Of a DNA stretch of 34,741 nucleotides, positions 1,044 to 29,264 are shown piece after piece; within the stretch, counting starts at the first letter, position 1; every line of letters begins with the position of its first letter. The notes under the pieces were generated by a model. The model made no database searches, was not told where the DNA came from, and saw nothing but the letters and a program-made list of their open reading frames with translations. Source of the stretch: OM182 bacterium (GTDB taxonomy: Bacteria > Pseudomonadota > Gammaproteobacteria > Pseudomonadales > Azotimanducaceae); assembly GCA_004213835.1 (NCBI GenBank), contig SHAE01000007.1, forward strand, positions 1 to 34,741, written 5' to 3'. The position numbers and the translations under genes are program-made.

Positions 1044-1044
1044 C

Positions 1045-4839: not shown

Positions 4840-4946
4840 AGCATCGCAGTGTTCAGACAATGGCTGAGAAGGGCACCGCGCTCGAACCGAGCAAAGACCT
4901 AGCGAGGCCCGAGCAAGAACTGAGAAGGACTAAAGCAGAGCAATGA
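4836..4946 (+). CDS. Candidate 36-residue charged micro-ORF bridging uraD and hiuH
   Basis: A GTG at 4836 overlaps the uraD stop (GTGA). The frame stays open for 36 codons and ends in a TGA at 4944-4946 that overlaps the hiuH start (ATGA at 4943). The peptide contains QTMAEKGTALEPSKDLARP, is highly charged and hydrophilic, and matches nothing I know. An internal ATG at 4860 could also start it. As with the xdhB-xdhC gap, the ORF occupies the spacer exactly. I infer either translational coupling or an unannotated small protein; a chance frame cannot be excluded. Confidence 0.35.
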   Translation: MKHRSVQTMAEKGTALEPSKDLARPEQELRRTKAEQ

Positions 4947-5296: not shown

Positions 5297-5298
5297 CG

Positions 5299-7781: not shown

Positions 7782-7823
7782 CGATTCGCTTGGGCTGAAT
7801 GTCCCCAGCTTTTTGCTGTGTCG

Positions 7824-8744: not shown

Positions 8745-8830
8745 AAAAATCTCCTATTGGCTAAGTCATGCTCAACAAAGCAAAAACCGCCAGCAAACAC
8801 AACGACGACTAGGCATTAGATCAACAACCC

Positions 8831-8860
8831 GCACAGGCCTGCATAGGCCTGCAGAGGCCA
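8831..8860. repeat. Three-copy 10-bp phased repeat
   Basis: GCACAGGCCT, GCATAGGCCT and GCAGAGGCCA lie head to tail, differing at two to three positions. The 10-bp period is about one helical turn, which would place each AGGCC core on the same DNA face. It lies in the puuE-hpxW promoter region. Confidence 0.7.
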
Positions 8861-8869
8861 GAGGATAGG

Positions 8870-8883
8870 ACGACAGTTGTCGT
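8870..8883. promoter_or_regulatory. Palindrome, candidate operator
   Basis: ACGACA-GT-TGTCGT is a perfect inverted repeat with 6-bp arms in the divergent promoter region, the size expected for a dimeric regulator site. Assignment to any regulator family would be a guess. Confidence 0.3.
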
Positions 8884-9082
8884 GGCATGCCGTTACACCG
8901 GATCGCCCGGCGCGCACTAATTCAAGGCGCCGAAAACCTGATAGGCGCCCACTGAATGGGTTGATAGCATGGCACAGCATTTGCAGATCGATTGTTTGGG
9001 CGCCGGATCTGGATTCCGGACTTATCGGCCCGAACAAACATGAGCTGCACCGCGCCATTTAGCATTAGGCACTTGAACGACC

Positions 9083-10669
9083 ATGACCAAACAAGCCGTC
9101 GCTTTTACATCACCGCATTTTTTGGCCACCCAAGCAGGCATGGACGTACTGCAGCGTGGCGGCAATGCCGTGGACGCGATGATCGCGGCGGCGGCGATGA
9201 TCGCAGTCGCCTACCCTCATATGAATGGTTTGGGCGGTGACGGCTTTTGGCTCGTGCACCAGCCGGGTCAGAAACCTTGGGCCATTGATGCCAGCGGTAC
9301 CGCAGCCACCGCAGCCAGCCCAGATTGGTATGCCCAGCGCTCGCTGCAAACCATACCGGCGCGAGGCGCCCCTGCGGCATTAACCATGGCAGGTACCGTT
9401 GCGGGTTGGCAGCTAGCGCAAGACACCTGGTCAGCGAAAAACCCTGCTGAGCAGGTAATGCCCATTGCCGACCTGTTGGCTGCTGCAATAACGCGGGCAG
9501 AGGACGGTATCGTGGTAACCGATAGTCTTGCGGCGGCATCGCAGAAAGTTGCCGATGAACTGCAAGGCGCTGACGATTATCAGCGCGTATTCACTCGGCA
9601 TGGCAGTCCTGTGCAACCGGGCGAAACATTCCGCAACCCAGCGTTGGCGGGTCTGCTAAAGCTGCTCGCAGAGCAAGGTCTGCAAAGCTTCTACCGTGGT
9701 CAGGTGGCGGAAGGTTTGGCGCAACATTTGTCAGCTTGCGGATCGCCCATCAGCCTCGACGACTTTACCAGTTACCAAGCCCAACTCGTGACGCCACTAG
9801 AGGTATCGATCGATGGCGCTGAGATATTTAACCTGCCGGCACCCACGCAGGGATTTGCGTCGCTGCTGCTGATGGCCTGCTATGACCGTTTGGCAAAAGC
9901 CGAATGGCCTGAGGCCGAGAGCATTCATGCGCTGATTGAAATTACTAAGCATGTTTTTGCACTGCGGGAACAGTGGGTCGCTGACCCCTCCCAAGTACCG
10001 GTGGATTTACAGGAGCAGTTGTCTGCCGCGTCTGTTGCCCGAATTGCTGCCGAGATTGATCTTCAAGGCGTGGCGCAGTGGCCGCGACCGGCCCAGGGTG
10101 GCGATACGGTTTGGATGGGCGCAAAGGACGCTGACGGAACCATGGTCAGCTTTATTCAAAGCTTGTACTGGGAATTTGGCTCCGGTGTTGTTGTGCCGCA
10201 GTACGGTTTGGTTTGGAATAACCGAGGGTCGAGCTTTTCTTTGGCGCCGGGCATTAGGCAACTTGCACCGAGGCGCAAACCGTTTCATACACTTAACCCG
10301 TCGTTGCTGATCGACCACAGCGGCGAGCGCATCGCCTTCGGCACCATGGGCGGCGAGGGTCAGCCGCAAACCCAAGCGGCATTAATGATGCGTCATCGAT
10401 ATAGACAACAAAGCCTCGCTGACGCTGTCAGTCGGCCCCGTTGGTTGCTCGGACGGACCTGGGGTGACGAGGACCACGGCCTTAAGATCGAAAACGACTT
10501 AGACGCAGTCATTGTTGCTGCACTTGAAAGTCGAGGGCATAGCATCACCATGGTGCCCCCTCGTAATGAGGCAATGGGCCACGCGGGTATGGTCAAAGCC
10601 ATGACCGACGGCGGTGCCGAGGCCGCCACCGATCCGCGCAGCGACGGCCTAGCACTGACATCAGGATAA
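9083..10669 (+). CDS. hpxW: Gamma-glutamyltransferase-family Ntn hydrolase, probable oxamate amidohydrolase
   Basis: This 528-residue protein is a member of the gamma-glutamyltransferase fold. MDVLQRGGNAVDAMIAAAA and NGLGGDGFW are conserved in the large subunit. GGDTVWMGAKDADG marks the autocleavage site, giving a predicted nucleophile at Thr342, and TMGGEGQPQTQAA is in the small-subunit half. No signal peptide is seen, unlike periplasmic GGT. HpxW of Klebsiella converts oxamate to oxalate and ammonium in allantoin catabolism. Neighbouring aminotransferase and allantoate amidohydrolase genes support that assignment over glutathione metabolism. A generic GGT-like hydrolase remains possible. 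Confidence 0.82.
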   Translation: MTKQAVAFTSPHFLATQAGMDVLQRGGNAVDAMIAAAAMIAVAYPHMNGLGGDGFWLVHQPGQKPWAIDASGTAATAASPDWYAQRSLQTIPARGAPAALTMAGTVAGWQLAQDTWSAKNPAEQVMPIADLLAAAITRAEDGIVVTDSLAAASQKVADELQGADDYQRVFTRHGSPVQPGETFRNPALAGLLKLLAEQGLQSFYRGQVAEGLAQHLSACGSPISLDDFTSYQAQLVTPLEVSIDGAEIFNLPAPTQGFASLLLMACYDRLAKAEWPEAESIHALIEITKHVFALREQWVADPSQVPVDLQEQLSAASVARIAAEIDLQGVAQWPRPAQGGDTVWMGAKDADGTMVSFIQSLYWEFGSGVVVPQYGLVWNNRGSSFSLAPGIRQLAPRRKPFHTLNPSLLIDHSGERIAFGTMGGEGQPQTQAALMMRHRYRQQSLADAVSRPRWLLGRTWGDEDHGLKIENDLDAVIVAALESRGHSITMVPPRNEAMGHAGMVKAMTDGGAEAATDPRSDGLALTSG

Positions 10670-10676
10670 ATAAATT

Positions 10677-11906
10677 GTGACAGCTCCCTATCTACCACCG
10701 CCGCGCCTGCTCATGGGCCCCGGCCCGATCGATGCAGACCCGCGGGTTTTGCAAGCCATGTCCAGCCAATTGATCGGACAGTTTGATCCGAGTATGACCG
10801 CCTGCATGGATCTCACCATGGCCTCGTATCGGGAGGTATTTTGTACCGACAATCAGTGGACGTTCTTGGTCGATTCAACCTCCAGAGGCGCCATCGAGGC
10901 ATCAATGGTGTCGCTGGTAGAACCCGGTGACACAGTACTGGTGCCGATTTTCGGCCGCTTTGGATATCTGCTGAAAGAAATTGCCAGTCGCTGCGGTGCC
11001 AACGTAGAAACCATCGAAGTGCCCTGGGGCACGGTGTTTGACCCCCAGCAAATCGCCGACGCCATTCGTGAAACCCAGCCAAAAGTCTTGGCGATTGTGC
11101 AGGGCGATACGTCCACGACGATGTTGCAGCCATTGGCCGATATCGGCGCACTGTGTCGTGAGGCCGGCGTGATTTTGTACTGCGACGCGACTGCGTCCAT
11201 CGGCGGCAATGCGCTGCAAACCGACGACTGGGGTCTAGAGGTCGTGACAGTGGGTTTGCAAAAGTGCTTGGGCGGTCCTTCGGGCAGCGCGCCAATTACC
11301 CTGGGCGAGCACGCTGTAGACGTTATTAAGGCGCGGCGACATGTTGAGGCGGGCATCAAAACTCAGGATCACCGAGAAGGCAACGGACTGAGAATCGCCT
11401 CCAACTATTTTGATCTTGCGATGATCATGGATTACTGGGGGCCTGAGCGGCTCAACCACCATACCGAAGCAACCTCCATGCTTTATGGCTCGCTCGAGTG
11501 CGCGCGCATATTGCTCGAAGAGGGTTTGGACAATGCCATTGCGCGCCATGAACTCAACGGTCGTGCGCTGGCCGAGGGCCTGCTCGCCATGAACCTGCAG
11601 CTTTACGGCGATCAACAAAACCGCATGAACAATGTGGTCGGCGTGTACATACCCGTGCAGGTCAACGGCGCCCTAGTTCGCCACGACATGCTGCACGATT
11701 ATGGCATTGAAATTGGCACGTCCTTTGGGCCGTTGGATGGCGTTATCTGGCGCATTGGCACCATGGGCTACAACGCGCGCCCCGATGCAGTGCTGAAAAC
11801 CCTCGCCTGTTTAGAGCAGTGTTTGATCAGCTCGCAACACGGCATGCAACCCGGCGCGGCAGTCGCAGCAGCGAAGAAAACCTACGCAGCCGCGCAGACC
11901 TCCTAG
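10677..11906 (+). CDS. pucG: (S)-Ureidoglycine-glyoxylate aminotransferase (PucG/HpxJ type)
   Basis: This 409-residue class V PLP-dependent aminotransferase has MGPGPIDADPRVL at the N-terminus and STSRGAIEASMVSLVEPGD. VIVYCDATASIGG-like sequence (VILYCDATASIGG) lies near the cofactor aspartate. VGLQKCLGGPSG has the Schiff-base lysine at Lys196. The protein resembles alanine-glyoxylate aminotransferases, but position between hpxW and an allantoate amidohydrolase points to ureidoglycine as amino donor. The products would be oxalurate and glycine. The start is GTG at 10677 with AGGA at 10663-10666. The operon spacing on each side is only 6-7 bp. Confidence 0.85.
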   Translation: MTAPYLPPPRLLMGPGPIDADPRVLQAMSSQLIGQFDPSMTACMDLTMASYREVFCTDNQWTFLVDSTSRGAIEASMVSLVEPGDTVLVPIFGRFGYLLKEIASRCGANVETIEVPWGTVFDPQQIADAIRETQPKVLAIVQGDTSTTMLQPLADIGALCREAGVILYCDATASIGGNALQTDDWGLEVVTVGLQKCLGGPSGSAPITLGEHAVDVIKARRHVEAGIKTQDHREGNGLRIASNYFDLAMIMDYWGPERLNHHTEATSMLYGSLECARILLEEGLDNAIARHELNGRALAEGLLAMNLQLYGDQQNRMNNVVGVYIPVQVNGALVRHDMLHDYGIEIGTSFGPLDGVIWRIGTMGYNARPDAVLKTLACLEQCLISSQHGMQPGAAVAAAKKTYAAAQTS

Positions 11907-11912
11907 CCGACG

Positions 11913-13187
11913 ATGCGCAGCGCAAAAAATCAAGGCCAAGTTTGTGATGTCGTGGCGGTGGCGGCCGCAAGGGTAATGCAGCGGTGCGATATCCTCGCGA
12001 CGCTCTCTGCAAGCCCGAGCTTTATTGAGCGAACCTATCTCAGTCCAGCGCATGCCCAAGCCAACGACATGGTCCAAGGGTGGATGCGCGAAGCGAAGAT
12101 GAGTACTCGGCAAGATGCTGTCGGCAACATCTGGGGTCGCTATGCCAGCAGCGACACCTCGGCCCCTACCCTCATCGTTGGCTCACATCTCGATAGTATT
12201 GTTAACGCGGGAAAATACGACGGCATTCTTGGCGTTCTGCTGGGCATCGAGCTGTGTGACCTGCTCGCTGCCAGTGGCACCGACCTGCCGTTCAACTTAG
12301 ACGTCGTGGGTTTCTGTGATGAAGAAGGCGTTAGGTTTGGTGCAACCCTGCTTGGCAGCTTAGCGATCAGCGGTAAGTGGCAGGACAGCTGGGCTGAATT
12401 GACCGATACCGATGGCATCAGCCTCGCTCAAGCCATGCAAAATTTTGGTCTGTCGATTAGCGAAGCCAGCACTGCTGCGCTGGATCCGGCGTCGGTGCGG
12501 GGTTTTTTGGAAGTGCATATAGAACAAGGTCCGGTGCTCGAATCGCGTGACCTGCCAGTAGGGGTGGTGACTGACATCTCAGGCGCACGCCGATTTAGCC
12601 TAGTGGTCGAAGGTAAGGCAGGCCACGCCGGTACCGTGCCCATGTCTATGCGCAAGGATGCCCTGCTGGGAGCCAGTCAATGTATCGCCTTGGTCGAAGA
12701 GGCGACAAAGCGTTTCAATGTGCTCGCAACCGTTGGAGACATTTCTTGCACACCCGGGGCGGCCAACGTAATTCCCGGCAGCGTGCAGTTTTTGCTGGAC
12801 ATCAGAAGCGCGAAAGATCGTCTGCGTGACCGCGCGTTGGATTGGTTGATGGCGGCTATGCGCTCGCACTGCCGTAAGCGCGGATTGAACATCGACAGTA
12901 TCGAGATCCACAGTGCGGACGCAGCCGCTTGTGATAGCCGTTGGCAGCGGCTTTTTGAGCATGCGATGCGTGATGCAGGCATCGAGGTGAATTCGCTCGC
13001 CAGCGGTGCGGGTCACGATGCCATGGCAATGACCGGTTTTACGCCGATGGGCATGCTTTTTGTGCGCTGCAAAGAGGGTATTAGCCATCACCCCGATGAG
13101 TCGATTACGACGAACGACGCAGCGGTTGCACTCGACGTGCTCACCCGAGCGGTCTGTGCAGATGCGGGTGTAGCAGCTCCTATTTAA
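11913..13187 (+). CDS. allC: Allantoate amidohydrolase (M20 family)
   Basis: This 424-residue M20-family metal-dependent amidohydrolase has GSHLDSIVNAGKYDGILGV (metal ligands), FCDEEGVRFGATLLGS, EVHIEQGPVLE, GKAGHAGTVPMSMRKDAL and SGAGHDAMAM. These are the conserved blocks of the allantoate amidohydrolase/N-carbamoyl-L-amino acid hydrolase group. Context after puuE, hpxW and pucG favours allantoate, releasing ammonium, CO2 and ureidoglycine, the substrate of the upstream aminotransferase. A beta-ureidopropionase or carbamoyl amino acid hydrolase function cannot be excluded by motif alone. The Klebsiella name would be hpxK. Confidence 0.87.
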   Translation: MRSAKNQGQVCDVVAVAAARVMQRCDILATLSASPSFIERTYLSPAHAQANDMVQGWMREAKMSTRQDAVGNIWGRYASSDTSAPTLIVGSHLDSIVNAGKYDGILGVLLGIELCDLLAASGTDLPFNLDVVGFCDEEGVRFGATLLGSLAISGKWQDSWAELTDTDGISLAQAMQNFGLSISEASTAALDPASVRGFLEVHIEQGPVLESRDLPVGVVTDISGARRFSLVVEGKAGHAGTVPMSMRKDALLGASQCIALVEEATKRFNVLATVGDISCTPGAANVIPGSVQFLLDIRSAKDRLRDRALDWLMAAMRSHCRKRGLNIDSIEIHSADAAACDSRWQRLFEHAMRDAGIEVNSLASGAGHDAMAMTGFTPMGMLFVRCKEGISHHPDESITTNDAAVALDVLTRAVCADAGVAAPI

Positions 13188-16712: not shown

Positions 16713-19700
16713 ATGACGTTTAGCGGTGTGTTGATCGCGAATCGGGGAGAAATTGCCATACGTATCGCACGGGCAGCGCAAGATCTGGGGTTGCGCACGG
16801 TTGCCGTGTATTCCCAAGACGACGCCGCCAGCCTGCACACACAGGTAGCAGACGAGGCAGTTCAGTTGGAAGGGCTTGGTGCGCGGGCTTACCTCAACAT
16901 CGAGGGCGTGATTGCAGCAGCTCAAGCCAGCGGCTGCGATGCCATTCATCCCGGCTACGGTTTCTTGTCTGAGCAGGCCGAATTTGCCACCGCCTGCGCG
17001 AATGCGGGCATTAAGTTCATTGGACCGACGGCAGAGCACCTGGGTTTGTTTGGCGACAAGGCCCGTGCGCGGGAAGCAGCCATTGCTGCAAATGTGCCGG
17101 TACTGCAGGGCATTGATCGCGCGGTGACCTTAGCAGAGGCTCAAGCATTCTTCGGCCAGCATCCCGGAGGCATCATCATCAAGGCGCTGGCAGGCGGCGG
17201 TGGTCGCGGCACTCGTGCGGTCACTAACGCGGCTGACCTGGCGGAAATTTTTGCGCGCTGTCAGTCCGAGGCGAAGGCGGCATTTGGTATTGAAGACGTC
17301 TACGTCGAGGTCTTTTTGCCCAAGGCCAAGCATATCGAAGTGCAAATCATCGGCGATGAGCATGGCAGCATCACGCACCTTGGCGAGCGTGAGTGTTCTG
17401 CCCAGCGGCGCAATCAAAAAGTGGTGGAGATAGCTCCTGCGCCAGCGCTGGATGAAGAGCTGCGGCAGCGCATGATTGAGGCGGCAGTGCGTTTCGCGCA
17501 GGCGCAGAACTATCAAAGCTTGGGCACCTTCGAGTTTCTCCTCGACACCTCAGGCAGCGGTTTTGAGTTTGTGTTCATCGAGGCCAACGCGCGGCTGCAA
17601 GTGGAGCATACGGTTACCGAAGAAGTCACCGGCGTTGATCTGGTGCAAAGCCAGATTCGTGTGGCCGGCGGTGAATCCCTGTCGGACCTCGACTTGGCAG
17701 ATCCGGCAACGCCACGCGGCTTTGCCATTCAAGCCCGGGTGAATTTAGAAACCCTCGGTGCTGATGGTTCGGTGCTGCCCTCTGCAGGCACGCTTACCGC
17801 CTACGAACCCCCCAGCGGCCCCGGCGTGCGGGTCGATGGCTTTGGTTATAACGGTTATCAAACTTCTACGGCCTTTGATTCGCTGCTGGCCAAGGTCATC
17901 GTTTCGACCAAGGCCGACAACTTTGCCGCGGCCTGTGCCAAGGCGGGCAGGGCACTAACTGAATTTCGTATCGAAGGTCTCAGTGCCAACACGGATTTTC
18001 TGCAGAACATCTTGAGTCATACCGACTTTGTCGAGGCGTCGATTCATACCCGCTGGGTAGATGAAAACATGCAGACTCTCGCGTCCCCTTCGGGTCAGCG
18101 TAATCGCTATGTGAGCGCGCAGCAGGGGGAGCCTGGCGACGGCTTTGCTGGCGCTCGCGTAGACACTTCAGACCCGCTGGCTTTGTTCGCTCACGATGCC
18201 GAAATGAAGAACCGTCGGAGCGAAGTGGTGCAGGAAGCTGCCGTAATTACCGGCCCTGACGGATCTGTAGGTGTTAGCTCACCGATTCAAGGCACCATTG
18301 TGTCGATTGACGCAGCTGTGGGCGACGAAGTGCGGGCCGGTCAACAGCTAGCGGTGGTCGAGGCCATGAAGATGGAACATGTGATCGCCGCTGACTTCGA
18401 CGGCATCGTGCGCCAAGTCACCATGGCAGAAGGCGACGTGGTTCGTGAAAGCTTTCCCATCGTTTTTGTGGAAGAAGCCCACGTCAGTGGCGGTGCGCAA
18501 ATCACCGACGAGGCCGTGGACCTTGATCATATTCGCGCAGACCTGCAAGAAAACTATGACCGGCATGCATATACCCTAGACGAGAATCGTCAAGAAGCAG
18601 TGGCAAAGCGACACGCCCGAGGCGGCCGCATGCCGCGCGAGAACATCGCCGAGTTGATGGACGATGGCTCATTCAAAGAATACTGGCCCTTGGTCGTGGC
18701 GCGTCAGCACAAACGACACGATATGGATTCGCTGCGCGAGCGCACGCCGGGGGATGGCGTGGTGGCCGGTACCGGCACCGTGAATGCAGATCTGTTCGGT
18801 GACGAAGCCGCGCGAGCCATGGTGGTGCACTACGACTACACGGTGCTCGCGGGCACACAGGGGGCGCGCAATCACTACAAGCAAGACCGCATGTTTGAGC
18901 TGGCCCTGCGCTGGCGCATTCCGCTGATTTTATTTGGCGAGGGCGGCGGTGGTCGTCCTGGCGATGACAGCACCGGCCCTGCGGTCGCCTTCGACACCCC
19001 CACCTTTACGACCTTTTCTAAGCTTTCTGGTGCCGTGCCCTTGGTCGGTGTGAATCATGGGCGGTGTTTCGCGGGCAATACGGCGTTGCTCGCCTGCTGC
19101 GATGTGATCATCGCAACCAAGGATTCTACCATCGCCATGGGCGGGCCAGCCATGATCGAGGGCGGCGGTCTGGGTATTTACACCCCGGAAGAAGTTGGCC
19201 CCATGTCCTTTCAGGTGCCCAACGGGGTTGTGGATATTCTGGTCGAGGATGAAGCCGAGGCGGTTCACGTAGCGAAAAAGTATCTCAGCTATTTCCAAGG
19301 CAGCCGACAAGATTGGCAGGCGCCGGATCAACGCAAGCTGCGGCATATCGTGCCGGAGAATCGACTGCGTTTGTACGACATGCGCGAGATCATCGATACC
19401 GTAGCCGACGAAGATTCGTTGCTAGAGATTCGCAAAGAATTTGGCATTGGCGTGATCACCTGCTTTATTCGGGTAGAAGGCAAACCTATGGGCGTCATCG
19501 CCAACAACCCGCACCATTTGGCTGGCGCCATCGATTCCGACGGCGCAGACAAAGGCGCGCGCTTTATTCAGCTTTGCGACGCTTTTGATATTCCCATCCT
19601 CAGCCTAATGGACTGCCCGGGCATGATGGTGGGGCCAGATGTCGAAGCAACAGCCCTGGTCCGCCACTGCGTACGCATGTTCAACGCCGGCGCAAACCTT

Positions 19701-20087
19701 ACAACGCCAATGTTCGGTGTGATCGTGCGTAAAGCCTATGGCTTGGGTGTACAGGCCATGTGCGGGGCAAGCGCCTTGGCTGGCTTTTTCACAGTCGCAT
19801 GGCCAACCGCCGAGTTCGCTGGCATGAACATCGAAGGTTCGGTAAAACTTGGCTATCGCAACGAACTGATGGCCATTGAAGATCCCCAAGAACGCGCAGA
19901 TGAATTTCAGCGTCGGGTGGATCGGGCCTACGAATCGGCCAAGGCCGTGAACGCAGCTGCCGGTGGTGGCCTAGATGACGTGATCGATCCCGTGGAGACG
20001 CGGTCTTGGGTAGCAGAAAGCCTGAAGCGCCTGCCACCCGTGCCAGCGCGCACGGAGAAAAAATACCCGTTCGTCGACACTTGGTAA
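16713..20087 (+). CDS. Single-chain acyl-CoA carboxylase (BC-BT-BCCP-CT)
   Basis: This 1124-residue protein carries all carboxylase parts in one chain. An N-terminal biotin carboxylase (about 1-450) has VLIANRGEIAIRIAR, the ATP-grasp loop ALAGGGGRGTRAV and FIEANARLQVEHTVTEEVTG. A BT-like linker follows. A biotin carrier domain (about 515-590) has VVEAMKMEH with Lys553 as biotin site. A C-terminal carboxyltransferase (about 620-1124) has GEGGGGRPGDDSTGP and LMDCPGMMVGPDVEATALVRH. Architecture and size match the long-chain acyl-CoA carboxylase type known as a homohexamer from Mycobacterium avium. The substrate here could be acetyl-, propionyl- or longer acyl-CoA. AGGAGGGG precedes the ATG. The selenoprotein gene follows after 21 bp, with GGAGG. 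Confidence 0.9.
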   Translation: MTFSGVLIANRGEIAIRIARAAQDLGLRTVAVYSQDDAASLHTQVADEAVQLEGLGARAYLNIEGVIAAAQASGCDAIHPGYGFLSEQAEFATACANAGIKFIGPTAEHLGLFGDKARAREAAIAANVPVLQGIDRAVTLAEAQAFFGQHPGGIIIKALAGGGGRGTRAVTNAADLAEIFARCQSEAKAAFGIEDVYVEVFLPKAKHIEVQIIGDEHGSITHLGERECSAQRRNQKVVEIAPAPALDEELRQRMIEAAVRFAQAQNYQSLGTFEFLLDTSGSGFEFVFIEANARLQVEHTVTEEVTGVDLVQSQIRVAGGESLSDLDLADPATPRGFAIQARVNLETLGADGSVLPSAGTLTAYEPPSGPGVRVDGFGYNGYQTSTAFDSLLAKVIVSTKADNFAAACAKAGRALTEFRIEGLSANTDFLQNILSHTDFVEASIHTRWVDENMQTLASPSGQRNRYVSAQQGEPGDGFAGARVDTSDPLALFAHDAEMKNRRSEVVQEAAVITGPDGSVGVSSPIQGTIVSIDAAVGDEVRAGQQLAVVEAMKMEHVIAADFDGIVRQVTMAEGDVVRESFPIVFVEEAHVSGGAQITDEAVDLDHIRADLQENYDRHAYTLDENRQEAVAKRHARGGRMPRENIAELMDDGSFKEYWPLVVARQHKRHDMDSLRERTPGDGVVAGTGTVNADLFGDEAARAMVVHYDYTVLAGTQGARNHYKQDRMFELALRWRIPLILFGEGGGGRPGDDSTGPAVAFDTPTFTTFSKLSGAVPLVGVNHGRCFAGNTALLACCDVIIATKDSTIAMGGPAMIEGGGLGIYTPEEVGPMSFQVPNGVVDILVEDEAEAVHVAKKYLSYFQGSRQDWQAPDQRKLRHIVPENRLRLYDMREIIDTVADEDSLLEIRKEFGIGVITCFIRVEGKPMGVIANNPHHLAGAIDSDGADKGARFIQLCDAFDIPILSLMDCPGMMVGPDVEATALVRHCVRMFNAGANLTTPMFGVIVRKAYGLGVQAMCGASALAGFFTVAWPTAEFAGMNIEGSVKLGYRNELMAIEDPQERADEFQRRVDRAYESAKAVNAAAGGGLDDVIDPVETRSWVAESLKRLPPVPARTEKKYPFVDTW

Positions 20088-20108
20088 GCAAATCCGGAGG
20101 CGCTACCC

Positions 20109-21233
20109 ATGAACTACTTTGACTACTCAGAGTTCGAAATTGAGATTCGCGAAGATCTGCCTGCAACCTATGCCGCTTACTGGACGCAGTTAGCAAAACC
20201 CGGCAACTGGTGGACTGGCGCCCAGCGGGTCGCCATTGCCGAAGAAACCCGCAACGCGCTGACCTGCGCATTTTGCGCTGAGCGTAAGCAAGCTCTGACG
20301 CCCTACGGTATAGCGGGTGAGCACGACCATGCTGGCGTGTTGCCCGAGCGAGTGGTCGATGCGGTGCACCGAATCATTACCGACCAAAATCGCATTACCC
20401 AAGCCTTGGTGGACGACAACGCTGCGAACGGACTCAGCAAAGCGGCCTACGTAGAGCTTGTTGGCATTGCGGTGACGGTATTTAGTATTGACGAATTTCA
20501 TCGCGCCATGGGCCTGCCGGTGGAAACGCTGCCGGAACCTGTGGCGGGAGAGCCGTCGCGCTATATGCCTCCTACCTTGGTGAGCGATATGGGGTTCGTG
20601 CCGACAATTCCTGCCGAGGGAGCGACAGCAAACGAGGCGGATCTATGGCAGCCGGGCTTTGCGCATAACGTGGTGCGGGCCCTGTCCTTGGTGCCAGACG
20701 CAGTACGCGATTGGCACAAAGTCGCCGGAGCACAATATCTGTCGTTGCCTGGTATGCAGAACATGGTGCAGGACGAAAACCGCTCGATTAATCGCATGCA
20801 AATGGAGCTAATCGCCGGTCGCGTGTCCTCGGTTAACGAGTGTTTTTACTGAACCAGCGCGCACGCAACGATGCTCCGTGTGAGCGCGATGACCACCGAA
20901 ACAGACGTCGACTTGCAGGGCGTCAATGGCGATGCAGCTAGCGCTGCCAAGGGTATTGAGTATGGCGCTGAACTGATGAGCTTCGCGGAAAGTTTGGCTC
21001 AACGAGATGACCAAGCGCTTGCAAGCGCTCGTATGACTCTGCAGCGAGTCGCCGGTGATAGGGTGATGGTGGATGCCGCCGGTGTTGCCGCGAATTTTCA
21101 GCGTATGGTGAGAATTGCTGATTCCATCGGCATTCCTTTCGACAACATGCAAAGCGACTTTGTGAATAGCATTCAAGCGGAGCTGGGTCTGACGCGCTTT
21201 GCCAGCGCCCAGCATTCGCTCGTAGACGGTTAG
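20109..21233 (+). CDS. AhpD/CMD-family protein with in-frame TGA, probable selenoprotein
   Basis: The frame from ATG 20109 reaches a TGA at 20850-20852 and continues in the same frame to TAG at 21231-21233. That gives 374 residues if the TGA is decoded. The TGA falls in RVSSVNECFY-(TGA)-TSAH, exactly where the carboxymuconolactone decarboxylase/AhpD family has the second Cys of C-x-x-C-x-x-x-H (Cys245, position 248, His252). Downstream sequence, for example GIEYGAELMSFAESLA and AAGVAANFQRMVRIADSIG, is typical of the C-terminal half of these proteins, so homology spans the TGA. I therefore infer selenocysteine at 248. A second CAFCAERK motif lies at residues 54-61. The protein probably reduces peroxides or disulfides. 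Automated calling would give two fragments, 20109-20852 and 20871-21233. Alternatives are a recent nonsense mutation or sequencing error. Confidence 0.8.
20857..20887 (+). promoter_or_regulatory. Candidate bacterial SECIS hairpin after the TGA
   Basis: Starting 5 nt after the TGA, GCGC (20857-20860) can pair with GCGC (20884-20887). GCACG (20861-20865) can pair with CGTGT (20877-20881) with a two-base bulge, leaving an 11-nt loop CAACGATGCTC. Bacterial SECIS elements sit just downstream of the UGA inside the coding sequence, with a small apical loop that often has an early G. Position fits, but the loop G is not clearly placed, so the exact fold is uncertain. Confidence 0.4.
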
Positions 21234-22319: not shown

Positions 22320-24095
22320 CTATCCTATGCCAGCAGCCAGCACATCGGGTACTTCGATGTACTTGGCGCGCAAGTACTCACCTAGCGATTTCGCTTGTTT
22401 ATCGATGCGATGGTTCGACGCCGCCCCTGTGCCAAGCACGCCCTTGATGTAGAAATTCATCGCTTTAAGGTTGGGCATGTCGTAACGCTCTACGTCGTAT
22501 TGACCAAAGTCCGGTACTAAGCGTTTGAACTCCTCTACGGTGAGATACTCGTACAAGAAACTGTAGGCCTCGTCGGTTTTTGCCCACACGCCGCAGTTGG
22601 CGTTGCCACCCTTATCGCCGGAGCGGGTGCCGAACAGGCGCCCAAATGGGATGCGCACAGCTGGGCCTGTCGGTGCAGGCGCGATGATGGCCGGTGTTTC
22701 TTGGTAATAGATCTCTTCCAAATCCAAACGCTGGGTGGGCAGCACCTCGGTCGTGGTACCACCAAGGTGCACCCGTTCAGTTAAACGTTGGCTGCTGATC
22801 AGCGCCGGCCAGTGAATGATGGCCGGGCCGCCGTTAAAGCCCGCCGCGCCGCGCCCGGTGTTGCCGGGAATACCCGCCAAGGCCAATTCGGTGGTTTTGG
22901 CCGCGAAGATGCGACCGAACTTGCTCGGGTCCTGTGCGGTGACGGTCACACGCAGTGCCGCATGGGCAACCTCGTTGCTGCCCGGGTCCTCATGGTCACT
23001 GCGGATCAGCTGTACTTCGACATCGTCGAATTGCTCGCGTCCGCCGATGTTGTGAAAAACTGCGTCCAAATACAGCTCGGCTTTCTTCTCAATATCAAGC
23101 CCAGTCAGCAGCACTTCCATCGACTGCTTATAAGGCCCTTGCGTGTTGAAACACACCTTATGTGTGGGTGGCGGGCTGCTGCCCCGGCAGCCGCTCACAT
23201 ACACGCGGTCGTCGCCCACTTGTTCAATCTGCATGGTATCGAAATGCGCGATGACGTCTGGGTTGTAGTAGGCCGGGGTAGAAATCTCGTATAGCAACTG
23301 TGCTTTGACCGTACCTTCGGAAATGAGGCCGCCGGTGCCCGGGTGTTTGGTCACCGTAAAGCTGCCGTTAGCCTCTATTTCGGCAATCGGATAGCCAACG
23401 TCGCGAAAGCTTGGTACTTCCTCAAAGAATGCGTAGTTGCCGCCACAGCACTGGGCGCCACATTCGATGATATGGCCCGCCGCCAGTGCGCCGGCAAGGG
23501 CGTCATAGTCGTTGCGCTGCCAATTGAACTTCCACGCCGCCGGGCCAATCACCACGGCAGCGTCGGTAACGCGCGGGCAAATGACGATGTCAGCACCTTG
23601 ATCCAGCGCCTCCTTGATGCCCCAGCCGCCCAAGTAGGCGTTCGCGGTAAGCGCCTTTTGATCGGTGTCTTTGAGGTCCTGCTGGGTATCGAGATTGGTG
23701 AACGATTCGCCGTCGCCTTGGAGCTGTTCGAGATTAGGCAGCAAGTCATCGCCATCGATGTAAGCAACCTTCAGTTGCACACCCAGCTCTGCCAGAATTT
23801 TTTCCACCTCCGCTGCCATGCTCTTGGGGTTCAGCCCTCCAGCATTGGTTACGATCTTGATGTTCTTTTCACTGCACAGCGCCGCTACATCTTTGACCTG
23901 CTTCAAAAACGTACCGACGTAGCCAGTATCTTCTCCCCGCGTCTGCTGCTGGTTGTACAAAATCGACATGGTCAGCTCGGCAAGATAGTCACCGGTCAGT
24001 ACGTCGATGGGGCCGCCTTCGACCATTTCTCGTGCAGCATCTAAGCGGTCACCGTAGAAACCGCTGCAGTTACCAATGCGTATCACATCGCTCAT
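22320..24095 (-). CDS. atuA: AtuA-family protein (acyclic terpene utilisation, DUF1446)
   Basis: A 591-residue AtuA-type protein. The N-terminal half opens with IRIGNCSGFYGDRLDAAREM and has TNAGGLNPKSMAAEVEKIL, GAQCCGGNYAFFEEVP and PGTGGLISEGTVKAQLLYEI. The C-terminal domain has RSGDKGGNANCGVWAKTDEAY. AtuA is needed for growth of Pseudomonas on acyclic terpenes, but its exact reaction is not settled. It is the last gene of the - strand operon behind the carboxylase subunits and an enoyl-CoA hydratase, the setting expected for the family. GGGAGA precedes the ATG. Confidence 0.88.
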   Translation of the reverse strand: MSDVIRIGNCSGFYGDRLDAAREMVEGGPIDVLTGDYLAELTMSILYNQQQTRGEDTGYVGTFLKQVKDVAALCSEKNIKIVTNAGGLNPKSMAAEVEKILAELGVQLKVAYIDGDDLLPNLEQLQGDGESFTNLDTQQDLKDTDQKALTANAYLGGWGIKEALDQGADIVICPRVTDAAVVIGPAAWKFNWQRNDYDALAGALAAGHIIECGAQCCGGNYAFFEEVPSFRDVGYPIAEIEANGSFTVTKHPGTGGLISEGTVKAQLLYEISTPAYYNPDVIAHFDTMQIEQVGDDRVYVSGCRGSSPPPTHKVCFNTQGPYKQSMEVLLTGLDIEKKAELYLDAVFHNIGGREQFDDVEVQLIRSDHEDPGSNEVAHAALRVTVTAQDPSKFGRIFAAKTTELALAGIPGNTGRGAAGFNGGPAIIHWPALISSQRLTERVHLGGTTTEVLPTQRLDLEEIYYQETPAIIAPAPTGPAVRIPFGRLFGTRSGDKGGNANCGVWAKTDEAYSFLYEYLTVEEFKRLVPDFGQYDVERYDMPNLKAMNFYIKGVLGTGAASNHRIDKQAKSLGEYLRAKYIEVPDVLAAGIG

Positions 24096-24137
24096 GTTGT
24101 CTCCCTCTCGACGCGCTGGCGTCGCCCTGATCTGTGG

Positions 24138-24914
24138 TTATTCTTTTATCCAATTGGGTTTGCGCTTCTCACGAAACGACGCCATGCCTTCTGCGCCCTC
24201 GTCAGAACGAAACATGCGCGCACTCCACTCGGCGGTTTCTTTGAACCCTGCCTCGATAGACAGTTGCGGCACCCGACGCGCCAGCTTTTTGCACTCTTGA
24301 ACTGCAATAGGGCCGCCTAGGTTGATCATGGCAATTTGCTCTTCAACGCTACTGATCAGTTGGTCTTCTGGCACGGTGATGTGCGCAAGCCCCATGTCGA
24401 CAGCCTGCTGGCCATCGAAACGCTCGCCGGTTAAGAACAACTTCATGCCGTGGTGTACGCCCAGCTTCGGCAGACAGACCACGGAAATGATCGCTGGTAT
24501 GACGCCAATGCGTACCTCGCTGAAACTGAATTGCACATCAGTGCGCGTTACCACGATGTCGGATGCGCCGACCAACCCCAGCCCGCCGGCGAAGGCCGCA
24601 CCGTTAATGGCTGCGATAACCGGTTTAGGACTGTCCATGATGGCGGTGAGCACGTCGGCATAGGGCACGGCGCGGCCGACGCCCTCTGAGAGTTGGCCGG
24701 GTGGGCTCTTCAGGTCGGCGCCAGCGCAGAACGCTGAACCGTTGCCAGTAATCACGATGGAGCGCACTTCATCGTTGGCGTTGGATGCCATCAAGTGATC
24801 GTAAAGCTCGGTGACCAATATCGCTGAGAGTGCGTTACGGTTATCCGGTCGGTTCAGCGTTATCCAAGCCGCACCGTTGCGAATCTCATACAGGGTTGCT
24901 TCGGTTGCACTCAT
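24138..24914 (-). CDS. Enoyl-CoA hydratase/isomerase family protein
   Basis: A 258-residue crotonase-fold protein. GSAFCAGADLKSPPG carries the first oxyanion-hole residues and the region AAINGAAFAGGLGLVGASDIV the second. The C-terminus reads SMASFREKRKP-like (MASFREKRKPNW), common in hydratases. In Atu and Liu pathways a hydratase adds water to the product of the biotin carboxylase. Position 2 bp after the carboxylase gene supports an atuE-like role on a branched glutaconyl-CoA. The exact substrate is not readable from sequence. Confidence 0.88.
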   Translation of the reverse strand: MSATEATLYEIRNGAAWITLNRPDNRNALSAILVTELYDHLMASNANDEVRSIVITGNGSAFCAGADLKSPPGQLSEGVGRAVPYADVLTAIMDSPKPVIAAINGAAFAGGLGLVGASDIVVTRTDVQFSFSEVRIGVIPAIISVVCLPKLGVHHGMKLFLTGERFDGQQAVDMGLAHITVPEDQLISSVEEQIAMINLGGPIAVQECKKLARRVPQLSIEAGFKETAEWSARMFRSDEGAEGMASFREKRKPNWIKE

Positions 24915-24916
24915 GG

Positions 24917-26899
24917 TTATTCCTCTTCCGCCAATGTGACCAGCAGTTGGGCGTTGTCGACCTGATCGCCCACCCCCACATGCACTTGTTCAACGGTGCC
25001 GTCTCGCGGGGCAACGATGCGATGCTCCATTTTCATGGCCTCCAAAATCACCAATAAATCGCCTTTTGCCACCGTATCCCCGGCAGCAACTTCTGTGGTG
25101 AGCACCGCGCCGGGCATGGGAGCAGTCAAACCGCCGCTGGCGTCGACGCCTCTAGGATCTGGGTAACGCGGTAGCTCAATCAGCACCAAATCGCCGTTAT
25201 CGCCGTGCAGCAGCCACTGCATCCCATTGCGCTGAATGTCGAACTGCAGTCGCTGGCCGTCTAACGCCAGATCAATGCGGCCTTCGCCGGCTTGGTGCAT
25301 GGCCACGCTGTGGGTCTCGTCATTGCAGATCACCTTGAAGGTGCCATCGCGCAAACTCTGGTAAGCAACTGTTAGCTCGGTGTCGGCCACGGTGTAGGTC
25401 GTCGATTGCAGGGGCATGGTGGAGTTGCGCCAGCCGCTTGGCAGGGTGGTCAGCACCTTGGCGGCGAGCCTGCGCTGGGCCTGACTTTCCATGGCCACGG
25501 CGATGGCCGCTTGCAGGTGTTCAAGCTCAGATACCTCGCGCTGCAACGGCGGCTTTACTCGCTCGATAAAGTCTGTGGTGGTGTCACCGGCTAGGTACTG
25601 CGGCGTGCGCAACGTGGTAACGAGGAAATCACGATTGGTGTTGAGGCCCGCAATGGCGGTGGTTTCGAGTACCCGTGCCAGGCGTCCCGCGGCCTCGCGG
25701 CGGGTCGGCGCGTGCACGATAACCTTGGCGATCATGGGGTCAAACTGCGTGCTGATCTCGCTGCCGGCCTCTACGCCGGAGTCGAAGCGCGCCCCGCCTG
25801 CGGTAGCTGGCTTCCAGACCAAGACCGGACCCGGTGATGGCAAGAACCCCTTGGCCGGATTTTCTGCGTACAGGCGCGCCTCTATGGCATGACCGTTGAT
25901 CGAAATCTCGTCTTGGGTAAAAGACAGCGTTTCGCCCTCGGCGACACGAATTTGCTCGCGCACCAAATCTTTGCCGATGATCTCTTCGGTGACCGGATGC
26001 TCCACCTGCAGGCGGGCATTCACTTCAAGAAAGTAGAAGTCGTCGTTGTCGCCGAGCAAGAACTCCACGGTGCCCGCGGAGGCGTAGCCAAGTTTTCGTG
26101 CCGCAGCGATAGCCGCATCGCCCATGCGCGATCGCAGGGCATCGTCCACAGCCGGCGAGGGGGCTTCTTCGATAATCTTCTGATGTCGGCGCTGGATGGA
26201 GCATTCACGTTCGTAGCAGTGCACGAGATTGCCGTGACTATCGCCGAGAATTTGAATCTCGATATGTCTAGAGGTGGCCAGCCATTTTTCAAGGAACACC
26301 GTGTCATCGCCAAAAGAGCTACCGGCTTCGCGCTTGGCGCCCTCAACCGCCGCCATCAGCTCGGCTTCGCTTGCAACCACACGCATGCCGCGACCACCGC
26401 CACCGGCGGAGGCTTTGACCAAGACCGGATAACCAATCTGCGCAGCCGCCGCGACGATATCGGTATCGGCAGTAATTTCGATGCCCGGCAGGGTGGGTAC
26501 ACCCGCTTCGTCCATGAGCCTTTTGGCAGACAGCTTGTCGCCCATTAAGCCAATGACTTCCGGCGACGGGCCAAGCCACTTTACGCCCGCATCAATAACG
26601 GCTTGGGCGAAGGCCTGGTTTTCGGACAAAAAGCCGTAACCCGGGTGGATGGCATCAGCGCCACTGCGTTTTGCCGCGTGTAATACCTTGGTTACGTCCA
26701 GATAGGTCTCGCCGGTGCTTTTGCCGTTAAGCGCAATGGCGGTGTCGGCTTCGAGTACGAAGGGTGCATTGACGTCACCGTCGGCATAAATCGCCACGGT
26801 GCTGATACCCATGGCTTGGGCGGTACGATTAATGCGTCGTGCGATCTCGCCGCGGTTGGCGACAAGCAGACGGCTGATGGGGGTAATTACATGCGCCAT
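24917..26899 (-). CDS. atuF: Biotin carboxylase/carrier subunit (AtuF-like)
   Basis: A 660-residue acyl-CoA carboxylase alpha subunit. It has ISRLLVANRGEIARRI at the N-terminus, VKASAGGGGRGMRVV as ATP-grasp loop, ECSIQRRHQKIIEEAPSP and FLEVNARLQVEHPVTE. The C-terminal biotin carrier has ILEAMKMEHRIV with Lys623. The ATG at 26899 overlaps the end of the carboxyltransferase gene by 13 bp; an earlier in-frame start would extend into it without family sequence. With the upstream beta subunit it forms a geranyl-CoA or methylcrotonyl-CoA type carboxylase. AtuA in the operon favours geranyl/citronellyl-type substrates. Confidence 0.9.
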   Translation of the reverse strand: MAHVITPISRLLVANRGEIARRINRTAQAMGISTVAIYADGDVNAPFVLEADTAIALNGKSTGETYLDVTKVLHAAKRSGADAIHPGYGFLSENQAFAQAVIDAGVKWLGPSPEVIGLMGDKLSAKRLMDEAGVPTLPGIEITADTDIVAAAAQIGYPVLVKASAGGGGRGMRVVASEAELMAAVEGAKREAGSSFGDDTVFLEKWLATSRHIEIQILGDSHGNLVHCYERECSIQRRHQKIIEEAPSPAVDDALRSRMGDAAIAAARKLGYASAGTVEFLLGDNDDFYFLEVNARLQVEHPVTEEIIGKDLVREQIRVAEGETLSFTQDEISINGHAIEARLYAENPAKGFLPSPGPVLVWKPATAGGARFDSGVEAGSEISTQFDPMIAKVIVHAPTRREAAGRLARVLETTAIAGLNTNRDFLVTTLRTPQYLAGDTTTDFIERVKPPLQREVSELEHLQAAIAVAMESQAQRRLAAKVLTTLPSGWRNSTMPLQSTTYTVADTELTVAYQSLRDGTFKVICNDETHSVAMHQAGEGRIDLALDGQRLQFDIQRNGMQWLLHGDNGDLVLIELPRYPDPRGVDASGGLTAPMPGAVLTTEVAAGDTVAKGDLLVILEAMKMEHRIVAPRDGTVEQVHVGVGDQVDNAQLLVTLAEEE

Positions 26900-28539
26900 G
26901 TGCCGTACTCCTTGGTGCCTTTGACCGTATTGTTGTGGCAAGCCGACAGTGACATGGCAACAACGTTGCGGGTGTCGCGTGGGTCGATCATGCCGTCATC
27001 GGAAACTCGTGAGGTGGCGTATAAACCCTTGGAGCGCTCCTCTGCCCAATGCTCTGCAAAGGCTGCACGCTTAGCGTCGGCCTCCTCGTCAAATTCAATA
27101 CCGCGCCGTGCAGCGGCGCCCTTGCCGACAATGGTCATGACACCGGCCATCACGGCAGGGCCCATGACGGCGATTTTCGAATGTGGCCAGATGTAGGTGA
27201 ACTTGGTGCCGAAGGCTCGACCGCTCATGCCGTAGTTACCCGCGCCATAGGAAGCGCCAACGATCACGGTAATGTGCGGTACCGTAGAGTTCGCTACCGC
27301 GTTAACCATCTTTGAACCGTTCTTGGTAATACCGCCTTGTTCAAAGTCGGTGCCGACAATGAAGCCGGTAATGTTGTGCAAAAACAGCAGTGGCACGTCG
27401 ATTTGGTTGCATAGCTGAATGAACTGCGCGGCTTTTTCGGCCGATTCTGAAAACAGCGCACCATTATTGCCGAGAATACCCACCGGATAACCGTGCACTG
27501 ATGCCCAGCCACACACGACCGATGGACCATAAAGGGGTTTGAATTCTTCAAAGGCAGAGCCATCCACCACGCGCATGATCACTTCGCGAATATCCAGTGG
27601 ACTTTTCAGATCCTTGGAGACCATGCCCAGCAACTCTTCTTCGTTGTGCACCGGCTCGTCAAAGGTGCTCTTGGGCTCGGGGCCAAGCTTGCGCCAATTC
27701 AGGTGCGAAACGACTTCACGGCAAATGCGAATGCCGTCCATTTCGTCTTGGGCGAGATAGTCGCCAAGTCCGGATGTTTGGGTATGCATGTCCGCGCCGC
27801 CAAGACTCTCGGCGTCGGCATCTTCACCCGTGGCCATTTTCACCAAGGGCGGGCCACCTAGAGACACCATGGCCTGGTTCTTCACCATAATGTTGTAGTC
27901 GCTCATGCCCGGTTGATAGGCGCCACCAGCCGTGGCAGCGCCAAAGATTACCGACACCGTGGGTATACGCATTTTTGATAGCTCGGAGATCTCGTAAAAG
28001 AGCCGCCCAGATTCGGCAAAGTGATCAACTTCTCGCTGCAGGGCGGCTTCCGCCTCGGCGTTGGGGTCGCCTTGGCTGTCGCCGCTGGCACCGCGTAAAT
28101 CTGCGCCAGCACTTTCAACAAACTGCACGTAGGGCATGCGATTTTCGCGAGCGATTTCTAGGCCGCGCATCAACTTCTTCGAGTTAAAGGGGTTAAAGGC
28201 GCCTGCGCGTACAGATGGGTCATGGCCCAAGATCACGCATTCCACGCCTTCAATGACGCCGATGCCGACGACGAAGCCAGAGCCGATGTCGTAGGAAGAG
28301 CGCCACGCCGCCAGCGGGCTGATCTCAAGAAATGGTGAATCCTGATCAAGCACATGGGAGATGCGCTCGCGAATGGGCATTTTGCCGCGCTTGCGAATCC
28401 GCGCGACGGCTTCTTCGCCACCGCCCTGAGCAGCCTCGTCATACAGCTGCTGCAGCTGCGCCAAGGTCTCCATCATGTCGGACTTATTGGTTTGGAATAC
28501 CTCAGACCGGGTATCCAGTTTTGAATCCAAAACAGGCAT
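26887..28539 (-). CDS. atuC: Acyl-CoA carboxylase carboxyltransferase subunit (AtuC-like)
   Basis: A 550-residue carboxyltransferase beta subunit. It has RKRGKMPIRERISHVLD, HDPSVRAGAFNPFNSKK, FVESAGADLRG, FGAATAGGAYQPGMSDYN and GILGNNGALFSESAEKAAQF. C-terminal GASYGAGNYGMSGRAF and WPHSKIAVMGP are typical of methylcrotonyl/geranyl-CoA carboxylases. The ATG at 28539 has GAGGGGGAAG upstream. It is the first gene of the - strand operon and overlaps the biotin carboxylase gene. Without structure-level comparison I cannot separate geranyl-CoA from methylcrotonyl-CoA specificity. Confidence 0.9.
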   Translation of the reverse strand: MPVLDSKLDTRSEVFQTNKSDMMETLAQLQQLYDEAAQGGGEEAVARIRKRGKMPIRERISHVLDQDSPFLEISPLAAWRSSYDIGSGFVVGIGVIEGVECVILGHDPSVRAGAFNPFNSKKLMRGLEIARENRMPYVQFVESAGADLRGASGDSQGDPNAEAEAALQREVDHFAESGRLFYEISELSKMRIPTVSVIFGAATAGGAYQPGMSDYNIMVKNQAMVSLGGPPLVKMATGEDADAESLGGADMHTQTSGLGDYLAQDEMDGIRICREVVSHLNWRKLGPEPKSTFDEPVHNEEELLGMVSKDLKSPLDIREVIMRVVDGSAFEEFKPLYGPSVVCGWASVHGYPVGILGNNGALFSESAEKAAQFIQLCNQIDVPLLFLHNITGFIVGTDFEQGGITKNGSKMVNAVANSTVPHITVIVGASYGAGNYGMSGRAFGTKFTYIWPHSKIAVMGPAVMAGVMTIVGKGAAARRGIEFDEEADAKRAAFAEHWAEERSKGLYATSRVSDDGMIDPRDTRNVVAMSLSACHNNTVKGTKEYGTWRM

Positions 28540-28701: not shown

Positions 28702-28992
28702 TCAAATGTGACGCGCTGGATCCATGTTTTTGTAGAGAAATCGAAAAATCAAAATGCCATCTTGCTCGGGACGATAGTAGATCGAGTGTGCAATACACTC
28801 TGCCCGACGCAGGCCCGGACGAATGTGGTCATAGTCCGCACCGAAGCTAGGGTTGTCAGTAATCACGCTAACCTTGTCCTGCAAAGTAAGTTGATAGCGC
28901 TCTGTTTGATCCGTCCCGTATTTCGTCAGTCCATCGAGATATATGTTGATCAAATCCCGTTCCGCGTCCCTGGTTAGGACGTAGTTAGTCAC
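28702..28992 (-). CDS. parE: ParE-type toxin
   Basis: A 96-residue RelE/ParE-superfamily toxin. VTNYVLTRDAERDLINIYLDG opens the protein; DNPSFGADYDHIRPGLRR and IYYRPEQDGILIFRFLYKNMD are the usual ParE segments before the C-terminal strand. The GTG at 28992 overlaps the antitoxin stop by 8 bp, the normal type II organisation; the open frame upstream to 29067 lacks family sequence. ParE toxins act on DNA gyrase. The final helix typical of longer homologues appears short. Confidence 0.88.
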   Translation of the reverse strand: MTNYVLTRDAERDLINIYLDGLTKYGTDQTERYQLTLQDKVSVITDNPSFGADYDHIRPGLRRAECIAHSIYYRPEQDGILIFRFLYKNMDPARHI

Positions 28993-29245
28993 GAAGTAAG
29001 CCTTTATCGCGGGCTTCCGCTCGCGCTGCTTCAAGGATCTCTGGCATGGATCGTGAACTGGCGCCACTGGCTTCTGCCTGATCTACCAAATGTTGCAGCG
29101 CTTGAACTGCAGCCTCGCGGCGTTCTTGATCTCTCCTGACGAGATCGCGGAAGTACTCGCTTACGTTGCCGTAACGCCCGGTGTTGATTTGGGCTTCAAC
29201 CCACTCGTTCATCTGGTCCGGCATTGAAATGGTCAGTCGGCTCAT
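28985..29245 (-). CDS. parD: ParD-type antitoxin (ribbon-helix-helix)
   Basis: An 86-residue antitoxin with MSRLTISMPDQMNEWVEAQI, the N-terminal DNA-binding ribbon-helix-helix part, and VSEYFRDLVRRDQERREAA in the ParD dimer region. A charged C-terminal half that binds toxin follows. The ATG at 29245 is preceded by GAGGGG. The antitoxin precedes and overlaps the toxin gene and probably autoregulates the operon by binding upstream. Confidence 0.9.
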   Translation of the reverse strand: MSRLTISMPDQMNEWVEAQINTGRYGNVSEYFRDLVRRDQERREAAVQALQHLVDQAEASGASSRSMPEILEAARAEARDKGLLRD

Positions 29246-29264
29246 CAAACGCCCCTCGGCAAAA

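Follow-up and report, generated by a model that had tools for sequence, protein, structure and literature searches.

Evidence for selenocysteine at an in-frame UGA in an AhpD-related protein of an OM182 bacterium

Introduction

Does a TGA codon in the middle of an AhpD-like redox motif end the protein, or is it read as selenocysteine (Sec)? The question is raised by a gene in contig SHAE01000007.1 of an OM182 bacterium, of which we analysed a stretch of 34,741 nucleotides (hereafter, the window). The frame that begins with ATG at 20109 has TGA at 20850–20852 (codon 248) as its sole interruption. It continues for 126 open codons to TAG at 21231–21233, and 374 residues result if the TGA is read. 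The first-pass annotation had stated that the frame runs through the TGA to 21233 and that the TGA stands at the Sec position of a CxxUxxxH motif; the sequence confirms both, the motif being C245-F-Y-U248-T-S-A-H252 (ECFY-TGA-TSAH). The gene features are as follows.

20109–21233, plus strand: selenoprotein coding sequence, 374 amino acids with TGA 248 read as Sec, stop TAG; matches NF041238 with 460 bits over residues 13–366
20096–20100, plus strand: putative ribosome-binding site GGAGG, 8 nt before the ATG (function inferred from sequence)
20850–20852, plus strand: TGA recoded as selenocysteine (codon 248); TGA in 87 of 88 homologues, TGC in one

Judged by base composition alone, a stretch of 126 codons free of stops beyond the TGA would arise with p of about 0.008, and therefore the comparison with homologues decides. 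Seven of the 30 open reading frames checked in the window end in TGA, and only the selenoprotein gene has an internal in-frame stop. Thus, TGA is an ordinary stop codon here, and the recoding is local.

Results

The joined protein was assigned to the NCBIfam equivalog NF041238 (AhpD_rel_CFYUT, “alkylhydroperoxidase-related (seleno)protein”), with 460.2 bits against a cut-off of 175 and residues 13–366 aligned to positions 1–357 of the 357-position profile. The CFYUT motif (Sec or Cys) is present at 245–249, and all six divergent homologues tested against NF041238 exceeded its cut-off (202–398 bits). The match to the Pfam CMD family PF02627 was 21 bits, under the gathering cut-off of 23, and that to TIGR01926 was 43.5 bits against a cut-off of 81.8. 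The initial description as a CMD/AhpD protein is therefore retained for the AhpD type and not for the Pfam CMD assignment, which is weak; the proper family is NF041238.

In the available text of a 2026 review, NF041238 is listed as a selenoprotein family with CxxU, under the name ‘AhpD-related protein (hypothetical protein 1, Sargasso Sea metagenome)’ (PMC13188914). The family was first reported in 2005 from four sequences with CxxU, with no functional evidence in the portion available (PMC1088965). The first-pass annotation had mentioned AhpD-like and CMD-domain selenoproteins from marine metagenomes; the window gene is a further member of this already catalogued family: it matches the profile over its full length, shares the CxxU and differs in nothing of substance. 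The two-domain fold, the N-terminal CxxC and the SECIS covariation described below were worked out here and are absent from the available text of both papers. AhpD-like 1 (COG2128) and AhpD-like 2 (PF02627) of the GOS survey likewise carry CxxU in an AhpD core, according to the sections seen of PMC2398784. The review excerpt equates “AhpD-like protein” with TIGR01926 (PMC13188914), whereas the window protein falls under the cut-offs of both TIGR01926 and PF02627.

When 146 related genomes were searched with the joined protein, 79 gave some match. The comparison set consisted of 88 near-full-length loci, fetched from 59 genomes and 30–89% identical. The window's own row and low-scoring hits on other CMD proteins were excluded from it, as were partial or split rows (two each in G030:C346, G068:C88 and G042:C84, and one each in G009:C119, G009:C77, G057:C35, G041:C63, G019:C39 and G088:C151). 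The alignment of the joined protein at residue 248, as proposed in the first-pass annotation, gave TGA in 87 of the 88 homologues and cysteine in one (L080 in G030:C41, codon TGC). H252 was kept in all 88. One of the 88, L131, has an additional TAA. Excluded rows that span the site also show a TGA, one each in G030:C346, G009:C119, G057:C35, G068:C88, G042:C84 and G041:C63. TGA was likewise found in seven of seven loci from named records (Halieaceae, the K189A clade and unplaced proteobacterial MAGs), two of which correspond to G028:C105 and G033:C15 and are not independent of the 88. In an 89-row tree, the cysteine row lies within a seven-row set whose other six members are Sec (support 97/92). 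Such a position among Sec rows would be expected for a Sec-to-Cys change, with the placement unsure because the row's own branch is long (1.79).

A nonsense mutation or a sequencing error that turned TGC or TGT into TGA in a cysteine gene would leave a product of 247 residues. That the gene is known from one assembly, 70% complete, and that one homologue does have cysteine would fit such an event. However, the same TGA recurs in 87 of 88 homologues (59 genomes, the cysteine row counted in), the coding sequence is conserved on either side of it (42-row alignment), and the hairpin downstream is under constraint. We consider a mutation or error extremely improbable. The evidence instead strongly supports the proposal, made on the first reading, that UGA 248 stands for selenocysteine in the redox centre of an AhpD-type protein; this evidence comprises the TGA/Cys exchange, a SECIS hairpin, tRNA-Sec in the same genome and selA, selB and selD in its kin. 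This support is independent of annotation.

In one bacterial family (f1), 61 of 91 genomes had the gene, with as many as three near-full-length copies and nearly always in the Sec form; therefore, Sec was kept and not replaced by Cys. Within the order but outside f1, the gene was found in two genomes, G093 and G101. In draws of genomes spread over many families, NF041238 exceeded its cut-off in 1 of 369 genomes of the class and 1 of 398 of the phylum, in each case our own genome. A plasmid search gave no match, 16 pattern stretches in viral contigs yielded no confirmed relative, and viral structures gave no match at E ≤ 0.001.

The region immediately 3′ of the TGA contains the following element.

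20872–20886, plus strand: SECIS hairpin core; stem 20872–20876/20882–20886, loop 20877–20881 (5 nt), invariant G at 20878

Numbered from the T of TGA, positions 23–27 pair with 33–37. We compared 88 TGA rows (the window and 87 homologues) with 1000 synonymous resamplings; because the rows share ancestry, these counts cannot be treated as independent trials. The core stem cells were paired in 97.5% of cases (resampled mean 53.8%, maximum 64.1%), and all five pairs were present in 77 of 88 rows (resampled mean 9.8, maximum 20). The leucine codon at 25–27 was CTC or CTT in 88 of 88 rows, while the codon use of the other parts of these genes predicts 26; serine at 34–36 was AGY in 83 of 83, against 36 expected. 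The pair 27–33, in which both members are third codon positions, was C-G in 74 rows, T-A in 12 and T-G in two. The loop G at position 29 was present in all 88, even when it belonged to a Ser or Gly codon, and the cysteine homologue has neither the 27–33 pair nor this G. The hairpin 3′ of the TGA is thus held by synonymous codon choice and by covariation.

The outer pairs 21–39 and 22–38 formed in only 58 and 51 of the 88 rows, respectively. The free minimum-energy fold of the window sequence (−16.0 kcal/mol) is another fold, the conserved hairpin having −9.4 kcal/mol when enforced, and the hairpin stretch folded no better than its shuffles (z −0.76). In the bSECIS model, as given in a figure legend of the review (PMC13188914, Fig. 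2), the loop has 3–9 nt with a G in its first two positions, the stem has 4–16 bp, the spacing is 16–37 nt and the minimum free energy is at most −7.5. The window agrees with this model, having a 5-nt loop with G second, a 5-bp core, a spacing of 24 and −9.4 kcal/mol with the core enforced; under the same enforcement, −7.5 was reached by 70 of 88 rows.

Our own assembly comprises 1.6 Mb in 103 contigs and is 70% complete. The search for selA, selB, selC and selD that had been proposed for this genome succeeded for tRNA-Sec, which was found in contig C79 with 73.8 bits against a cut-off of 47, and by ARAGORN too; selA, selB and selD were not found over cut-off in this 70%-complete assembly. In the related genomes G028 and G038, selA and selB are followed by a GPH-like MFS transporter, a Coq4-like gene and tRNA-Sec. 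Contig C79 ends at 7732 and has three of these genes: that for tRNA-Sec, the Coq4-like one and the one for the MFS transporter. Its tail aligns to the nearest relative, G028 (86%), up to L138:2944, where the selB stop is at 3088; C79 hence ends about 144 bp short of the position of selB in G028. The simplest reading is that selB and selA lie beyond the end of the contig.

Missing selA, selB and selD are also what would be seen if the selenoprotein gene were kept by descent in a species that had lost the Sec pathway, where UGA would now be a stop. Such a loss is very unlikely in our judgement: the tRNA-Sec is intact at 73.8 bits, its contig follows G028 to within 144 bp of the selB stop and ends there, and the window keeps the hairpin core.

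Among the 146 relatives, selA exceeded its cut-off in 77; among 18 chosen kin, selB did so in 14 and selD in 15. For co-occurrence, the gene was counted at E ≤ 1e-20 and selA at E ≤ 0.001: 56 of the 146 genomes had both, seven the gene alone, 26 selA alone and 57 neither, and five of the 82 selA genomes contributed only pieces below cut-off. RF01852 at E ≤ 0.001 matched in 145 of 146 genomes and in 14 of 14 controls; these matches are unspecific, and only selA was therefore used. The genomes with the gene and without selA were our own (G000), G009, G012, G014, G019, G031 and G033. G009 (96% complete) and G031 (90%), each in hundreds of contigs, had no selA and no selB over cut-off, and both had selD.

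Two observations on the Sec genes of other genomes are added here. Contig C321 of G101, a genome from a different family within the order, carries selA, selB, tRNA-Sec and the selenoprotein gene within about 5 kb (L078:300–5335). This clustering suggests transfer as a set, and possibly a transferable selenocysteine island. In the kin, selD is part of a long frame (L142:1408–3498 of G006 has 696 codons, most others over cut-off about 725–757), the N-terminal part of which reads like NADH dehydrogenase; these frames resemble the Ndh-SelD fusions described in the part of PMC2398784 available.

The whole protein was modelled with AlphaFold from the 42-row alignment (mean pLDDT 94.3). The features of its C-terminal half are as follows.

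20583–21230, plus strand: C-terminal half, AhpD-like catalytic domain (residues 159–374), from the model; 6k40 AhpD E 3e-15 (profile), Z 13.7
20805–20864, plus strand: proton-relay motif E233...C245-F-Y247-U248-TSA-H252, invariant in 42 of 42 rows, with the spacing of PA0269

E233, C245, Y247, U248 and H252 were invariant in all 42 aligned rows, Sec being counted with Cys, and model helices 229–242 and 246–262 place the relay in a helix-turn-helix. The corresponding relay residues, in the text seen of PMC3141380, are E36, C48, Y50, C51 and H55 in PA0269, and E118, C130, H132, C133 and H137 in M. tuberculosis AhpD. The spacing is identical in all three proteins, E-x11-C-x-(H/Y)-C/U-x3-H. The fold of the C-terminal half resembles that of PA0269 (Z 10.1) and of M. 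tuberculosis AhpD (Z 8.2). Unlike these two proteins, the window protein has Sec where they have the second Cys, is predicted to consist of two fused domains and carries an extra CxxC.

The N-terminal half contributes two features.

20109–20582, plus strand: N-terminal half, predicted diverged AhpD-like domain (residues 1–158); model pLDDT 94.5 and VIA-align, with no sequence support
20265–20276, plus strand: second CxxC, C53-A-F-C56; both Cys in 79 of 88 homologues

When the N-half was modelled alone, the 11 best VIA-align rows were all AhpD/CMD structures (Z 6.2–8.5), and the next row had Z 3.0. The 374-residue product is accordingly predicted by the model to consist of two fused AhpD domains, a structural claim that rests on VIA-align and is subject to that program's warning on helical folds. 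Foldseek alone matched neither the whole model nor the N-half model to a PDB entry at E ≤ 0.001. At the level of sequence, hhalign of the N-half against the C-half returned no internal duplication (probability 0.7%, E 0.082), the aligned segment pairing CxxC with CxxU; the N-half profile found nothing in the PDB below E 0.086, chaperonins ranking first; and the N-half had no CMD match in Pfam among 42 members. One or both N-terminal Cys are missing from nine of the 88 homologues, all of which still have the TGA: C53/C56 fall in a gap in six, residue 56 is Thr in two, and neither Cys is present in one.

Discussion

Our results make it very probable that the gene encodes an NF041238 selenoprotein with SelB- and hairpin-dependent Sec insertion and two predicted AhpD domains, most likely acting in the reduction of a hydroperoxide or a related electrophile. 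SelA and SelD would make Sec-tRNA-Sec, and SelB, acting on the hairpin just 3′ of the UGA at 20850, would insert Sec at codon 248. A defined hairpin and active-site set are hereby given for a family whose 2005 report, in its available text, offered no functional evidence (PMC1088965).

Since the whole AhpD relay is present, its second Cys replaced by Sec, the C-terminal domain would most likely reduce an organic hydroperoxide or a related electrophile, as a selenol/thiol hydroperoxide reductase. In AhpD, the second Cys is the attacking residue. By analogy with AhpD chemistry, the selenolate would attack the peroxide or related electrophile, C245 would resolve the intermediate to a selenenylsulfide, and a dithiol would regenerate the enzyme. 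It is conceivable, speculatively, that C53/C56 of the N-terminal half pass electrons to this C-terminal centre. PA0269, which has the same relay in Cys form, is only a weak peroxidase in the account available (PMC3141380), and no biochemistry of NF041238 was found in the parts of the literature examined.

A selenoprotein that is not a peroxidase is a less probable reading, which we nevertheless take seriously. The protein might reduce another electrophile, for example by reductive dehalogenation like that of Bmp8, a debrominase of the CMD family, or it might serve a catabolic enzyme as a dithiol relay. Compared with the whole model, Bmp8 scores Z 13.3, close to the 13.7 of the best single-domain AhpD, and it ranks first among the CMD-family rows found with the N-half profile, at a non-significant E of 0.088. 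The neighbouring genes (an acyl-CoA carboxylase fusion and an Atu-like cluster) are catabolic. In contrast, the AhpD relay E/C/Y/U/H is complete and invariant, and the carboxylase adjoins the gene in only two of the 88 fetched loci. We favor reduction of a hydroperoxide or a related electrophile by the AhpD-type centre.

The best structural match of the whole model is Sestrin2, in five entries with Z 14.8–16.8; the best of these (Z 16.8, 240 residues, rmsd 3.4) places model residues 1–343 on chain residues 75–477. A profile search of the PDB gave 14 rows with no Sestrin among them. As described in the accessible text of PMC4674687, Sestrin2 has two AhpD-like domains in one chain with its active centre in the N-half (Sesn-A), whereas that of the window protein is in the C-half. 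The Sestrin C-domain has an acidic hinge with DDYDY instead of a helix-turn-helix (PMC11429811, in part); the window protein keeps the C-half helix-turn-helix, has no DDYDY in its sequence, and differs from Sestrin2 further by its Sec and CxxC. Bacterial fused AhpD dimers (YciW and proteins of Corynebacterium ureicelerivorans, Comamonas aquatica and Rokubacteria CMD) likewise have two AhpD-like domains per chain, and were proposed as Sestrin analogues in the section seen of a 2024 review (PMC11429811). Two of these have the Cys pair in the C-half only, whereas the window protein has CxxU in the C-half and its family usually CxxC in the N-half. No selenoprotein is among the fused dimers in the available text of that review, where ‘seleno’ occurs only in selenomethionine, and no paper in the literature collection searched joins AhpD-like proteins, Sestrin and selenocysteine. 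The predicted shape of NF041238, which resembles that of animal Sestrins and usually includes a second cysteine pair, seems to have been little noticed.

We tentatively propose, as a possibility that we hold to be doubtful on balance, that NF041238 proteins are pseudo-dimers of Sestrin architecture in which the N-half CxxC dithiol takes electrons from a reductant and reduces the C-half CxxU selenenylsulfide after each turnover; both active sites would be kept, where Sestrin has one altered. Such an N-terminal relay would not be obligatory across the family, because nine of the 88 homologues are without the N-terminal pair and still have the TGA. If the proposal is true, NF041238 would represent a Sestrin counterpart in bacteria that uses Sec and has both active sites. 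Given the predicted fold, one can test for a link between AhpD proteins that depend on selenium and the origin of a stress regulator of eukaryotes. The remaining interest of the family lies in this double-domain architecture, with a redox motif in each half in most members.

The gene neighbourhood was also considered. A fused acyl-CoA carboxylase gene (16713–20087) ends 21 nt upstream of the selenoprotein gene, with catabolic genes around. An operon function derived from this carboxylase was rejected, as it adjoins in two of 88 loci, with at least 1 kb of upstream sequence present in 82 of 88. Neighbours that recur within 5 kb form their larger groups, of up to 21 loci, around a paralogue clade, with a PLP enzyme and hydrolases among them, and only small neighbour sets recur in the orthologue group: AtuA is near the gene in five loci (L049–L052 and L076), with both carboxylase subunits in four; a phosphoribosyltransferase pair is directly upstream in three (L051–L053); and a luciferase-type (LLM) oxidoreductase-like gene adjoins in L058, L059, L069, L071 and two paralogue loci. 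None of the recurrent neighbours was accepted as a functional partner. Since they are common to small orthologue groups only, the neighbourhood does not define the substrate.

In a second Sec clade of the family, a PLP enzyme is encoded on the other strand within 5 kb in 21 loci between L100 and L136, mostly of one paralogue clade. It presumably belongs to the O-acetylhomoserine/methionine-lyase type, a hint of sulfur or selenium amino-acid metabolism.

Elsewhere in the window, the minus strand at 22320–28539 encodes AtuA (by Pfam), an enoyl-CoA hydratase and two acyl-CoA carboxylase subunits. Positions 3–13187 hold what we take to be a purine/urate breakdown cluster, with presumed xanthine dehydrogenase parts, uraD/uraH-like genes, a guanine deaminase, a membrane urate oxidase with a cytochrome domain, an allantoinase-like gene and an allantoate amidohydrolase; a gamma-glutamyltranspeptidase (by Pfam) lies inside it. 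A small overlapping gene pair at 28702–29248 is, we assume, a ParE/ParD-like toxin-antitoxin module.
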